This document shows, in pieces, positions 3,099 through 19,035 of a DNA stretch of 38,303 bases. A model generated the notes under the pieces. That model saw nothing but the letters and a program-made list of their open reading frames with translations, searched no databases and had not been told where the DNA came from. Every line of letters starts with the position of its first letter. Position 1 is the stretch's first letter. The translations under genes and the position numbers were made by a program. This DNA is from a virus, in the IMG/VR virus record IMGVR_UViG_3300025917_000009, positions 1 through 38,303 of that record; one strand, written 5' to 3'.

Positions 3099-3452
3099 TT
3101 ATGACGCCCGGTCGTTCCTTGCGGAGTGTCCATTGGATGGTCGGTTACCATGCTGCCGACGTCGACGCGCGTCGATACCCCGATCGAGGTCGGCGGCGAT
3201 CTCTGCGGCCTTGGCTGCCTCTTTCGCGGCCTGGGAGACGTCCCAGGCTTTTCTGATCGTGCGTTCGGGCACGTCGAGCGCGGCTGCGAGCTTGGTCATG
3301 ACGGGGAGCGTCGGCAGCGTGCCGCGCACTTCGATGTTCTGCCAGGTGGCGTAGGGGATTCCGGTTTGGCGGTCGGCTTCGCGCCGGTTGGGGCCGTAGT
3401 GCCGGACGCGGAGCCTTTGAACTAGGTGGGCGAGTGTCTCTGGCTCAGGCAT
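3099..3452 (-). CDS. putative phage repressor (HTH-type, CI-like)
   Basis: 117 aa. The N-terminal 70 residues look like a Cro/CI-type helix-turn-helix: LAHLVQRLRVRHYG, READRQTGIPYATWQNIE, and TLPVMTKLAAALDVPERTIRKAW, which is the typical third and fourth helix pattern. A helical, Lys/Ala/Glu-rich segment and an Arg-rich tail follow; no LexA-type peptidase domain is seen. The start at 3452 (MPEPETL) is chosen because a -10 box ends six bases before it, implying a leaderless transcript. It faces the Cro-like gene at 3606 across a shared operator region, the classic lysogeny switch. The repressor assignment rests on fold and layout; family identity is moderate. Confidence 0.68.
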   Translation of the reverse strand: MPEPETLAHLVQRLRVRHYGPNRREADRQTGIPYATWQNIEVRGTLPTLPVMTKLAAALDVPERTIRKAWDVSQAAKEAAKAAEIAADLDRGIDARRRRQHGNRPSNGHSARNDRAS

Positions 3453-3458
3453 GCGTCT

Positions 3459-3488
3459 AGTATGCCATGTCAAGGTCGGCGTGTCCAA
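3459..3488 (-). promoter_or_regulatory. leftward promoter for the repressor (leaderless)
   Basis: On the - strand: -35 TTGGAC (3488-3483), 18-base spacer, -10 CATACT (3464-3459), then TAGACGC and the ATG at 3452. The start codon sits at the expected transcription start, with no room for a ribosome site. A leaderless message is known for lambda CI maintenance transcription and is frequent in Actinobacteria. Confidence 0.5.
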
Positions 3489-3547
3489 CCGACCAGTTAT
3501 TTCCAGAAACCCCCTGCATATACGCCTGTCATAAATCGGACGGACCG

Positions 3548-3589
3548 CGCCTAGGACGACACGCCTAGGTTGACACGCCTAGCTAGGCG
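3548..3589. promoter_or_regulatory. three 14-bp tandem operator-like repeats
   Basis: Three copies in exact 14-bp register: CGCCTAGGACGACA (3548), CGCCTAGGTTGACA (3562), CGCCTAGCTAGGCG (3576). The third is a perfect 14-bp palindrome placed within the spacer of the rightward promoter; the second contains that promoter's -35 box. A regulator bound here would block rightward transcription. Sequence near the repressor start (CGTCTAG at 3454) resembles a fourth half-site. Confidence 0.65.
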
Positions 3590-3598
3590 CGCTATGGT
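3570..3598 (+). promoter_or_regulatory. rightward early promoter for the Cro-like gene
   Basis: -35 TTGACA (3570-3575), 17-base spacer, -10 TATGGT (3593-3598). The ATG at 3606 lies at the predicted transcription start, so this message also appears leaderless. The spacer is occupied by the CGCCTAGCTAGGCG palindrome. This is the only strong promoter seen ahead of the whole early operon. Confidence 0.65.
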
Positions 3599-3605
3599 GG
3601 GCCTC

Positions 3606-3821
3606 ATGAAGTTCGACGCACAGGCTCTCCTCCAGGCACGAGAAGGCAGGGGCCTCACCCAAGAACAACTCGCCGCAGCGGCCGGGTTGACGTTTTCGAC
3701 AATCAGCCGCCTCGAGCGCGGCCTTGTCGTGCCCACGCTGAGCACGATCAACAAGCTCGCGCAGGCGCTCGACGGCGACGTGGAAGAACTGCTCACTACC
3801 GAGAACGGCGCGCCGGCATGA
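3606..3821 (+). CDS. Cro-like XRE-family regulator
   Basis: 71 aa forming one compact HTH_3/XRE domain: ALLQAREGRGLTQEQLAAAAGL (helices 1-2), TFSTISRLERGLVVPTLSTI (recognition helix and turn) and NKLAQALDGDVEELL. This is among the most recognisable helix-turn-helix families. ATG 3606 is chosen over a longer in-frame form because it starts at the predicted transcription start and the domain begins immediately. It is the first gene of the rightward operon and lies opposite the putative repressor, the position of lambda Cro. The stop overlaps the next start (ATGA). Confidence 0.88.
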   Translation: MKFDAQALLQAREGRGLTQEQLAAAAGLTFSTISRLERGLVVPTLSTINKLAQALDGDVEELLTTENGAPA

Positions 3822-3970
3822 AGAACGTCCGGCACATGACGCTCCTGCAGCTCGCGCTGCACGTCGCGAACCTGCCAGACCGCCCCATCCTGTGGACGCA
3901 GTTCGAGCGGGACGCGCGCGACGAGTACGACCGGCGCATCGTCGCACTTGAGCAAGGAGCGGCGGCATGA
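3818..3970 (+). CDS. 50-aa protein of unknown function
   Basis: Coupled by ATGA overlaps to the Cro-like gene before it and the secreted protein after it. It is helical in character (MTLLQLALHVANLPDR ... RDARDEYDRRIVALEQ) and acidic/basic-rich, with no cysteines or membrane segment. The tight coupling and codon use support it being real. Its function is unknown; being second in the early operon, it might antagonise host or prophage regulation. Confidence 0.6.
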   Translation: MKNVRHMTLLQLALHVANLPDRPILWTQFERDARDEYDRRIVALEQGAAA

Positions 3971-4809
3971 CGAGGCTTGGATACGTCCTCCTTGCGGTCG
4001 GGGCTTTCGTCCTCGCCGCCGCTCCGAACGCTTCCGCCCACCCAACCGCGACGTGGCTATCGGCCCGCACCACGATCCGCGTCCACGCCACCATCGTCCT
4101 CGCCCACCATGTCCGTGTCTGCAGCTGGCAGCCGACGGATAACCGCGTCCGCGGCTTCGTCCGCTACTCGAAGCGCCTCGCGACGGTCCCCGGCTGGGCG
4201 CAGGCTGGGCAGCGGCCGAGCCGCGCCGTCTGCGCGATCAACGGCGGCACGTATCGCACCGCCGCGCCGAACCAGTATCGGCCGAGCGGCACCGTCTACG
4301 CGCAGGGCCGGCGGATCCGCGGCTTCACCGACGCGCCGGCCGTCGGCTTCCGGAACGGCCACGCCTACATGGGCGCCCGCAACGCCTACCGGCACGGCGC
4401 CAGGTCGATCATGAACGGCCTCGCCTACCTCGTCACCAACGGCAAGCCGCTGCTCCACCACTCCCAAGCGCCATGGACGACGACGAAACAGTTCACCTGT
4501 GGAGCGCCCGGCACCGACGGCGTCTACGGATGTTCGCGTAGCGCGCTCGCCATCATGCGGACCGGCCGCGTCGCGCTCGTCGAGATCGGGCACGCCTCGA
4601 TGCCGCTCGCCGCGAGGATCCTCGCCAGGCTCGGCGCGAAGAGCGCGATCACCTTCGACTCGGGCGGCGCAGCCTTGATGTGGACGCTCCAAGGCTCGCA
4701 CAACACGGGCAGCCGCACCCAGGTCGGCCATCTGATGGGAGCGACCGTCGGCTCGGCTTGGAAGCGCAGGATCCCCGACGCGCTGATCGTGAACGCGAGG
4801 CCGCTGTGA
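3967..4809 (+). CDS. exported phosphodiester glycosidase-like protein (NAGPA family)
   Basis: 280 aa. A signal peptide is clear (MTRLGYVLLAVGAFVLAAAPNASA, cleavage near residue 24). The mature part follows the NAGPA domain (PF09992-like): CAINGGTY (about residue 90), GVYGCSRSALAIMRTGRVALVEIG, an ILARLGAKSAITFDSGGAALMW block corresponding to the family's LGA..A.NLDGGGS motif, and RIPDALIV at the end. Family members remove sugars linked by phosphodiester bonds (mammalian uncovering enzyme; bacterial exported homologues are linked to envelope glycopolymers). It is third in the early operon, an unusual place for an exported enzyme, which suggests surface alteration of infected or lysogenic cells. 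That role is inference. Confidence 0.75.
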   Translation: MTRLGYVLLAVGAFVLAAAPNASAHPTATWLSARTTIRVHATIVLAHHVRVCSWQPTDNRVRGFVRYSKRLATVPGWAQAGQRPSRAVCAINGGTYRTAAPNQYRPSGTVYAQGRRIRGFTDAPAVGFRNGHAYMGARNAYRHGARSIMNGLAYLVTNGKPLLHHSQAPWTTTKQFTCGAPGTDGVYGCSRSALAIMRTGRVALVEIGHASMPLAARILARLGAKSAITFDSGGAALMWTLQGSHNTGSRTQVGHLMGATVGSAWKRRIPDALIVNARPL

Positions 4810-11647: not shown

Positions 11648-12742
11648 TCACGCAGCGAGGTAGGCGTTCATGCGGCGTCTCGCGTCGTCGAGCGAGTCGG
11701 GCCACAGATGCGAATAGGTGTTGAGCGTCTCGGTCGGGTTGGCGTGGCCGAGTTGGGCAGAGACTTGGCGGACGTTCAGGCCGGCGGCGATCATCATCGA
11801 CGCGGCGGCGTGGCGCAGGTCGTGGAAGCGGACGCCGGGCAGGTCAACCTTCAAGCGCGCTTTGACCCAGCTACGCCGCATCAACCTGGCGGTGAACGGG
11901 CGAGGTTCCGGCCAGCGGCCACTCCCCGTCGTCATCGGCGCGACGAGCTCGCCCGGATACTCGGCGAGGTGGACCCGCAAAGCCTCCCCGACCGGCCCGT
12001 AGAACGCGACGCGGCGCACGCCTTCCGTCTTCGTCGAGTCGAGCTTCCCGGTGACGCGGTTGCGCTGCTGGTGGACGAACACCCACTCCTCGTCGAGGTT
12101 CACGTCGGCCTGGTGGAGGCCGAGGATCTCGCCTTCCCGCAGGCCGCAATACCCGGCGAGGAGGACGAGCGCGTAACACCGCGCGTCCGAGGCGAGGGCG
12201 AGCGCGTCGACTTGTGCCCGCGTCGGGATCGTGAGCGTCGGCCGTTTGACGCGGTCGATGGCTTCGGCCGGCGGCGGCATCGCCGGGATGTCTCCATACC
12301 TATGCGCGTGCCGCAGGACGCTGCGCAGCACGCCGTTACAGGCGGCGACCGTCTTCGGCTGGTGGATGCGGCCCATCTCCATCAGGAAGGCGTCCATCCG
12401 CCGCGCGTCGAGTTGGCTGGCCGGCATGTCGCCGAGGAGTCGGCGGATGTGGGCGGCGTGATCGTCGTAGCGTTCCCTGGTCGCGGGCTTCCACCGGCGT
12501 CCGCGGACGTCTTGCCACTCCGAGATGAGCTCGCTGACGGTGCGCGCGTCGGTCTTGGGCGCCGGCGGGTTGATCTTCTCGTCCTGCATCCGCTTGCGTT
12601 GGACGCCGAGCCACAGGTCAGCGTCGAGTTCCGAGTCGAACACTTCCGGCTTCACGCCGTTGATGCGCGCTCGATATCGGCCGCTAGGGAGGGGTTCGAT
12701 CGAGCCTGTGCCCTTGAGGCGGCGCCGCTTGGTGCGCGGCAT
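11648..12742 (-). CDS. int: tyrosine-family integrase
   Basis: 364 aa. An N-terminal arm-binding-type region (GTGSIEPLPSGRYRARING), a core-binding SAM-like domain (about residues 65-150) and a catalytic domain with the full set of active-site residues are present: R202 (GLREGE), K238 (STKTEG), H307 and R310 (FHDLRH), H333 (LGHANP) and Y343 (NTYSHL). It catalyses integration and excision between attP and attB. Starts at ATG 12742, immediately next to the stop of the upstream - strand gene, so the two are co-transcribed. attP lies about 370 bp upstream. Complete and apparently functional. Confidence 0.95.
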   Translation of the reverse strand: MPRTKRRRLKGTGSIEPLPSGRYRARINGVKPEVFDSELDADLWLGVQRKRMQDEKINPPAPKTDARTVSELISEWQDVRGRRWKPATRERYDDHAAHIRRLLGDMPASQLDARRMDAFLMEMGRIHQPKTVAACNGVLRSVLRHAHRYGDIPAMPPPAEAIDRVKRPTLTIPTRAQVDALALASDARCYALVLLAGYCGLREGEILGLHQADVNLDEEWVFVHQQRNRVTGKLDSTKTEGVRRVAFYGPVGEALRVHLAEYPGELVAPMTTGSGRWPEPRPFTARLMRRSWVKARLKVDLPGVRFHDLRHAAASMMIAAGLNVRQVSAQLGHANPTETLNTYSHLWPDSLDDARRRMNAYLAA

Positions 12743-18657: not shown

Positions 18658-19035
18658 ATGCCCGACTTCCGCCGCCAACGAGACACCGCCAGAGCCGAAC
18701 GAGACGAAGCTCTCCAACAACTCGAAGACCTCCGAGCCATCACCGGCTGGATCGAACCCGCCTACGCCAAAGCACTCCGCGACCACGCCGAACTCGCACC
18801 CAACGCCATCCGCCGCATCTCCGCCGGCGTCAACGGCATCCCCGAATCACGACCACCCAGCTACGACGCCCGCGCCTACAACGACCTCCGCCGCCAAAAA
18901 GAGTTCCAACGCCGCCAAGCCGAATACCTACGCCGCCGCCTCCGCCACCTCGTCGACGGCGACCACGACCCCGACGACGGAGCCACCGAAATGCCCACCC
19001 GTGCGCAACCCCGGGGGGAAAAAAGAACCGCATGA
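18658..19035 (+). CDS. 125-aa coiled-coil protein
   Basis: Starts at ATG 18658 directly after the ATPase stop. N-terminal helix RRQRDTARAERDEALQQLEDL, a short ITGWIEPAYAKALRDH core, then a second Arg-rich helix (YNDLRRQKEFQRRQAEYLRRRLRHLVDG). A role as small terminase or replication accessory is possible from position, but no HTH is seen. Unknown function. Confidence 0.55.
   Translation: MPDFRRQRDTARAERDEALQQLEDLRAITGWIEPAYAKALRDHAELAPNAIRRISAGVNGIPESRPPSYDARAYNDLRRQKEFQRRQAEYLRRRLRHLVDGDHDPDDGATEMPTRAQPRGEKRTA

Follow-up and report, generated by a model that had tools for sequence, protein, structure and literature searches.

The locus considered here raises the question of whether two divergent HTH genes, together with the repeats lying between them, form a developmental switch, and how such short repeats might act on the promoters that they overlap. 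The window, that is, the whole stretch of DNA that was analyzed, is an entire virus record of 38,303 bases (67% GC), possibly only part of a genome. We consider it likely that its control region acts as an immunity switch, deciding between lysis and lysogeny in a temperate phage. The two divergent HTH genes surround one intergenic region, the leftward HTH match being a weak one, and operator-like sites overlap both promoters at the sequence level. The presence of a tyrosine integrase gene (PF00589) suggests that the phage is probably temperate, no lysogen having been seen; no tRNA genes were found in the window. The four sites, the matching geometry of the promoters, the two HTH genes, and the integrase are established by sequence analysis, and their positions are compiled below.

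Positions of the candidate operators, predicted promoter elements, and relevant genes in the 38,303-base window
Feature	Position	Strand	Remarks
O_R1, perfect palindrome CGCCTAGCTAGGCG	3576..3589	+	Occupies bp 1 to 14 of the 17-bp P_R spacer
O_R2, CGCCTAGGTTGACA	3562..3575	+	Abuts O_R1; includes the P_R -35
O_R3, CGCCTAGGACGACA	3548..3561	+	Abuts O_R2; upstream of the P_R -35
O_L1, CGCCGACCTTGACA, fourth unit	3468..3481	-	Occupies bp 1 to 14 of the 17-bp P_L spacer
One-mismatch half-site CGTCTAG	3454..3460	+	Over the end of the P_L -10 and the bases preceding its start codon; may be chance
P_R -35 TTGACA	3570..3575	+	Promoter scan; also right end of O_R2
P_R -10 TATGGT	3593..3598	+	Promoter scan
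P_L -35 TGGACA	3482..3487	-	Promoter scan
P_L -10 CATACT	3459..3464	-	Promoter scan; with TG of an extended -10
Putative Cro-like HTH_3 protein, 71 aa	3606..3821	+	Pfam HTH_3, E 1.1e-16
Leftward HTH protein, 117 aa, presumed immunity repressor	3099..3452	-	HTH_31, E 0.0011, below the Pfam cut-off
Tyrosine integrase	11648..12742	-	PF00589, E 1.6e-20; ~8 kb from the switch

Our data confirmed the predicted arrangement of three CGCCTAG copies in a 14-bp register over the rightward -35 and spacer, located on the plus strand at 3548-3554, 3562-3568, and 3576-3582. The palindrome that had been recognized in the promoter spacer is likewise present, as a further CGCCTAG on the minus strand (3583-3589) completes a perfect 14-bp palindrome at 3576-3589. 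The autocorrelation of 3536-3595 peaks at a shift of 14 (27/46), with a second peak at a shift of 28 (14/32). Three copies of a heptamer at one spacing (8 to 30 bp) arose in 5 of 200 dinucleotide shuffles of the whole window, and since this rate covers the whole window, a chance triple in this single promoter is much less likely. The window contains two equally spaced heptamer triples, namely, the CGCCTAG triple and a CGCCGCC triple at 18889. Palindromes of 14 bp as such are not rare, with 9 in the window versus 6.6 expected.

While the 14-bp register is real, the heptamer originally taken as the repeated unit is too narrow, and a fourth copy, located within P_L, had been overlooked. The quartet at the right end is GACA in O_R2, where it is part of the -35, GACA again in O_R3, where no promoter makes use of it, and GGCG in O_R1. 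From these three quartets we derived a half-site YGYC and a unit YGYC-N6-GRCR with a 4-6-4 layout. O_R3 and O_R2 are identical at 12 of 14 bases, the right-end GACA among them, and O_L1 together with the GACA preceding it agrees with the P_R 18-mer at 15 of 18 positions. Shuffling gave an equally good match 1 time in 5,000 for the 95-bp stretch and 4 times in 200 for the whole window. The record of 38.3 kb has GACACGCC-N6-GRCR at three places, all within the switch region, two of them beginning in a -35 and one at the boundary between O_R3 and O_R2. The 153-bp intergenic region holds four occurrences of YGYC-N6-GRCR versus 0.05 in shuffles, none of 2,000 of which reaches four, although this count is descriptive and no independent test, since the pattern was derived from the switch region itself. 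The looser CGCC-N6-GACA has 11 further occurrences elsewhere in the window; thus, the quartets alone lack specificity.

The same details bear on a different reading of the repeats, in which CGCCTAG would constitute direct heptamer half-sites for a dimer that binds direct repeats, in the manner of P2 C, and not 14-bp dyads. Perfect direct copies of CGCCTAG number three and the full dyad only one, and the direct TTCCCGA repeats of relative G005, described below, are spaced 20 and 30 bp apart. According to the accessible part of PMC4752584, P2 C is a small phage repressor acting on direct repeats over a promoter, where it binds two 8-bp repeats flanking a -10. Its two sites are spaced 22 bp center to center, versus 14 bp here (PMC4752584), and the retention of GACA both at the right end of O_R3, without a promoter role, and in O_L1, which lacks the TAG, favors the 14-bp CGCC-N6-GRCR. 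With respect to the leftward protein, P2 C is its sole match among PDB sequences up to an E value of 1, but at 0.78 this match is not significant, and P2 C is absent from the best 50 fold matches of the leftward model. We regard direct half-sites as improbable compared with the 14-bp unit.

The original prediction further argued from helical phase that adjacent dimers would occupy rotated faces of the DNA. The arithmetic of this argument is right, as 14 bp amounts to ~1.33 turns and neighbors would be rotated by ~120 degrees, but close-packed HTH dimers have a precedent in controller proteins. In the R-M controllers studied earlier, sites partly overlap, with ~4 bp between recognition sequences, as described in the available portion of PMC4321490. 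Half-sites 2 and 4 (3562-3568 and 3583-3589) have opposite orientations and lie at a distance of 21 bp, which corresponds to two full turns, and may offer an alternative pairing.

Just two sigma70-type sites are found between 2500 and 5200, P_R (TTGACA-17-TATGGT, 3570-3598) and P_L (TGGACA-17-CATACT, 3487-3459 on the minus strand), the mean in shuffles being 0.2. A scan of the whole window, allowing at most one mismatch in the -35, returned three sites, among which P_R and P_L are the only two that directly precede a start codon, both with a unit in the spacer. They share a common layout of -35 TKGACA, a 14-bp unit, 3 nt, the -10, 6 to 7 nt, and ATG, so that each spacer equals a 14-bp unit plus 3 bp. 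This likeness might be explained by duplicated or convergent promoter sequence, with repeats that have no operator role, and TTGACAC followed by a C/G-rich stretch is also seen in promoters of three of the phage regions compared below (L059, L030, and L033). Nevertheless, O_R3 lies outside any promoter, and no promoter requires the perfect O_R1 dyad, which makes such an origin of the repeats highly improbable compared with a role as operators. As a separate observation, an inverted repeat, GGTCGG-N9-CCGACC, surrounds the P_L -35 (window 3474-3494) and is possibly a site for the second regulator.

Transcription normally begins ~7 to 8 nt downstream of the end of the -10 box. The ATG at 3606 lies 8 nt past the last base of the P_R -10 and the ATG at 3452 lies 7 nt past that of the P_L -10, distances that fit the earlier proposal that the repressor gene and the Cro-like gene both begin at the predicted transcription start. 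For the leftward gene, no Shine-Dalgarno pairing was found (-1.5 kcal/mol versus a background median of -3.3). The rightward gene has a weak Shine-Dalgarno-like GGTGGG just upstream, whose predicted pairing of -6.3 kcal/mol falls between the 10% and 25% marks of the values for random sequence, and its leaderless status is for this reason less certain than that of the leftward gene. If the rightward mRNA instead began upstream, GGTGGG could serve as a Shine-Dalgarno sequence, and a further in-frame ATG at 3594 would be in line with such a start. Since transcription on either side would, by the distance from the -10, begin at the ATG or right beside it, and the leftward gene does without a Shine-Dalgarno sequence, we think it unlikely that the rightward transcript carries a leader; both mRNAs probably start at or beside the start codon. 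Of the Mycobacterium tuberculosis genes with a primary start, about a quarter are leaderless, according to the accessible part of PMC3898074.

Considering these data, we propose a model in which each of the divergent sigma70-type promoters would bear a 14-bp operator, CGCC-N6-GRCR, placed directly after the -35 and 3 bp before the -10. An HTH dimer on O_R1 or O_L1 would cover the spacer, keeping RNA polymerase off. P_R carries a perfect dyad and two abutting copies, O_R2 over the -35 and O_R3 upstream, and with these units it would be expected to be more tightly repressed and to be shut first. P_L, with a single imperfect copy, would be shut only at a higher concentration of the regulator. Binding, polymerase exclusion, the order of occupancy, and leaderless starts are what we infer from the arrangement of these elements.

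Which proteins might act at these sites? The 117-aa leftward protein may be the repressor and the 71-aa protein its putative Cro-like opponent, and the two probably read identical sites. The structural model of the 71-aa protein (pLDDT 88) has as its best PDB fold match C.AhdI (TM 0.81, rmsd 0.7, 42% identity over 59 columns), with C.BclI, DdrO, and SinR close and 434 Cro lower, and the 4-6-4 layout of the unit fits a dimeric HTH_3 protein of the modeled kind. The model of the 117-aa protein (pLDDT 79) comprises four short helices and one long helix (63-102); its fold matches are weak, the best having an E value of 0.045, and no NCBIfam match was found.

Given that its closest fold is C.AhdI, the 71-aa protein could also be viewed as an autoactivator resembling R-M controllers, with upstream sites turning P_R on, instead of a Cro-like repressor. 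In the systems studied earlier, controllers of the kind of C.AhdI and C.Esp1396I have a closely packed pair of dimer sites, and they are required for transcribing their own gene and that of an endonuclease (available portion of PMC4321490). The terms controller protein and leaderless also occur together in some papers. On the other hand, O_R1, the best site here, is placed between the -35 and the -10, so that a protein bound to it should get in the way of polymerase, and the ten proteins scanned include no product of a restriction or methylase gene. The next scanned genes after the Cro-like gene encode a NAGPA-domain protein and a RecT-like protein. Autoactivation is, in our assessment, very unlikely, and we favor a Cro-like repressor. 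The phosphodiester glycosidase (NAGPA) domain protein (window 3967-4809), which is encoded behind the Cro-like gene and a 50-aa ORF, has an N-terminal signal-like hydrophobic stretch.

Sites of this kind might also be dispersed over the genome as stoperators, which the original prediction had raised for CGCCTAG. The heptamer occurs 6 times in the window versus 3.9 expected and is thus not enriched. The palindrome with up to three mismatches occurs 12 times versus 2.7 in shuffles, but a count of 12 or more is reached by 42 of 420 permutations of the half-site, the true one being counted among them, and a dispersed-site reading of these matches was rejected. The many dispersed copies that characterize an L5-like stoperator system were not found in the window.

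For comparison, we considered the divergent HTH regions of six virus records reached via related proteins (L030, L031, L032, L033, L058, and L059), together with L070, to which the P_R signature itself had led. In three of the six (L030, L033, and L059), and also in L070, a promoter-like site is followed by an ATG 6 to 8 nt past its -10. YGYC-N6-GRCR is absent from five of the seven HTH regions (L030, L031, L032, L033, and L058).

The 208-bp intergenic stretch of L070 contains four occurrences of YGYC-N6-GRCR, one of which served to find it, and none of 2,000 shuffles reaches four. Five 14-bp palindromes of the form YGCCA-N4-TGGCR lie within 382-587, with none elsewhere in its 14.5 kb. On the rightward side, TTGACA-CGCCATTAATGGCG-GAC-TACCGT is followed after 7 nt by the ATG of an HTH_3 gene, with a palindrome in the same spacer position as in the window, and the last of the five palindromes lies over this rightward start codon. 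On the leftward side, one palindrome directly adjoins TATGGT, after which the leftward HTH_3 gene begins with an ATG at a distance of 6 nt. Both divergent genes score above the HTH_3 cut-off. Judging by this layout, L070 is a candidate for another switch of this design, with both genes leaderless-looking.

Parts of this design are also seen in other records. L059 belongs to phage record G012, which has a 36% identical integrase. Its rightward side has CGCCTCACTTGGCG (CGCC-N6-GGCG) 3 bp before TAGGGT and then ATG, a -10 read by eye for which no -35 was scored, and its leftward side reads TTGACA-CGCCAGATATGGGG-TG-TATGAT-6 nt-ATG. YGYC-N6-GRCR occurs once in L059, as it does in 66 of 2,000 shuffles. 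In L030, from relative G005 (terminase 53% identical), TTCCCGA direct repeats at 20- and 30-bp spacing lie over and beside a leaderless-looking leftward promoter (1064-1120), and in L033 a GGGTGCC-N5-GGCACCC dyad (1097-1115) extends across the spacer and into the -10. Leaderless-looking promoters that contain a repeat or dyad in their spacer thus recur, with differing sequences, if not in every record examined. The HTH region of L032 (G009) contains a TTTGCGC direct repeat at 14 bp (777-797), again with a 14-bp period and of unrelated sequence.

Searches of viral and genome contigs brought up no relative that carries this array. The two-unit pattern matched two stretches of viral contigs, both in unrelated contexts (one within a long reading frame and one just past the end of one), and its TTGACA form was not found in genome contigs. 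The P_R signature matched nine stretches of five kinds in viral contigs, including L070 before its HTH_3 gene. Four others (L069, L071, L074, and L076) consist of a hairpin followed by a T-rich run and resemble terminators; two (L072 and L075) precede a 343-aa frame, L073 precedes a 13-codon frame, and L068 concerns a 64-aa frame without a Pfam match. The exact palindrome was found in 17 stretches of viral contigs; within 100 bp, none of these has a CGCCTAG array, and in none does the palindrome lie between the hexamers of a promoter scored at 9 of 12; L084 has one more palindromic pair ~94 bp away. In L086 (3430-3455), GGACACGCCTAGCTAGGCG is followed by C and TAGGGT, and this is the sole copy of GGACACGCC-N6-GGCG in a 137.6-kb record. 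The stretch is located where a reading frame ends, ahead of a gene that has a Shine-Dalgarno-like sequence, and we regard it as probable chance.

Relatives of the Cro-like protein, all below 60% identity, were detected at two loci in viral contigs, in one phage record, in 92 plasmid records, and at at least 16 loci in genome contigs, and the upstream regions of 16 such genome loci contain at most one CTAG each. The 117-aa leftward protein has no relative in the viral contigs. Terminase relatives were found at seven loci and led to G005, whose switch has other repeats. Among 396 genomes, drawn from the phylum of a Streptomyces genome, five match the terminase at an E value of 1e-10, and one holds a 49%-identical terminase, the flanks of which show no match to the window's two regulators. 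Our guess is an actinobacterial host, the terminase search having been confined to that one phylum.

Each single feature of the locus has a precedent among known phage switches, while the combination of an identical unit at the identical place in both spacers with three abutting copies was not found in a literature search conducted mostly without full texts. A speculative hypothesis, which we hold with little confidence, concerns a compact class of switches. In this scenario, each divergent leaderless promoter would be a cassette with the operator inside its 17-bp spacer (a 14-bp operator plus 3 bp), three abutting dimers at P_R, each turned by ~120 degrees, would wrap the DNA rather than line one face, and L070 would count as a further member. 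Should L070 and G012 have the design in common beyond chance, leaderless cassettes with the operator in the spacer may recur among phages and could be used to locate immunity regions in unannotated ones. Independently of such a class, a phage known from sequence alone gains a concrete, testable switch with four predicted operators, in which one candidate site is placed identically in two opposing promoters. The abutting 14-bp sites also raise the question of how HTH dimers pack when their neighbors are rotated.

Phage 434 operators are 14 bp long, have a 4-6-4 layout, bind an HTH dimer, and are separated by gaps. The candidate units described here share this length and layout, and the fold search with the 71-aa protein also matched 434 Cro, whereas three of our sites abut and the bases differ. 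In phage PY54, both the cI and the cro mRNA are leaderless by RACE, as is predicted here for the corresponding genes, but PY54 Cro binds one site, O_R3, next to the repressor gene, and not both promoter spacers, as far as the accessible text of PMC4488713 describes. The immunity cassette of mycobacteriophage BPs (O_R/O_Rep, gp33) has a 12-bp palindrome (CGACATATGTCG) with gaps of 5 to 8 bp to its partner and more sites genome-wide, unlike the abutting 14-bp units here, for which no dispersed sites were found. Furthermore, attP lies within the BPs repressor gene and the integrase gene adjoins it, while the integrase gene of the window is ~8 kb away (available part of PMC4557955). Nevertheless, BPs offers an operator, studied experimentally, between the -10 and the -35 of P_R, the position in which the 3576-3589 palindrome lies by sequence. 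The two loci further have in common divergent genes for a repressor and a Cro-like protein, a short palindrome in the P_R spacer, a neighboring site that touches the -35, and another operator close to the promoter of the repressor gene, the genes and operators of our locus being putative (PMC4557955, available part).
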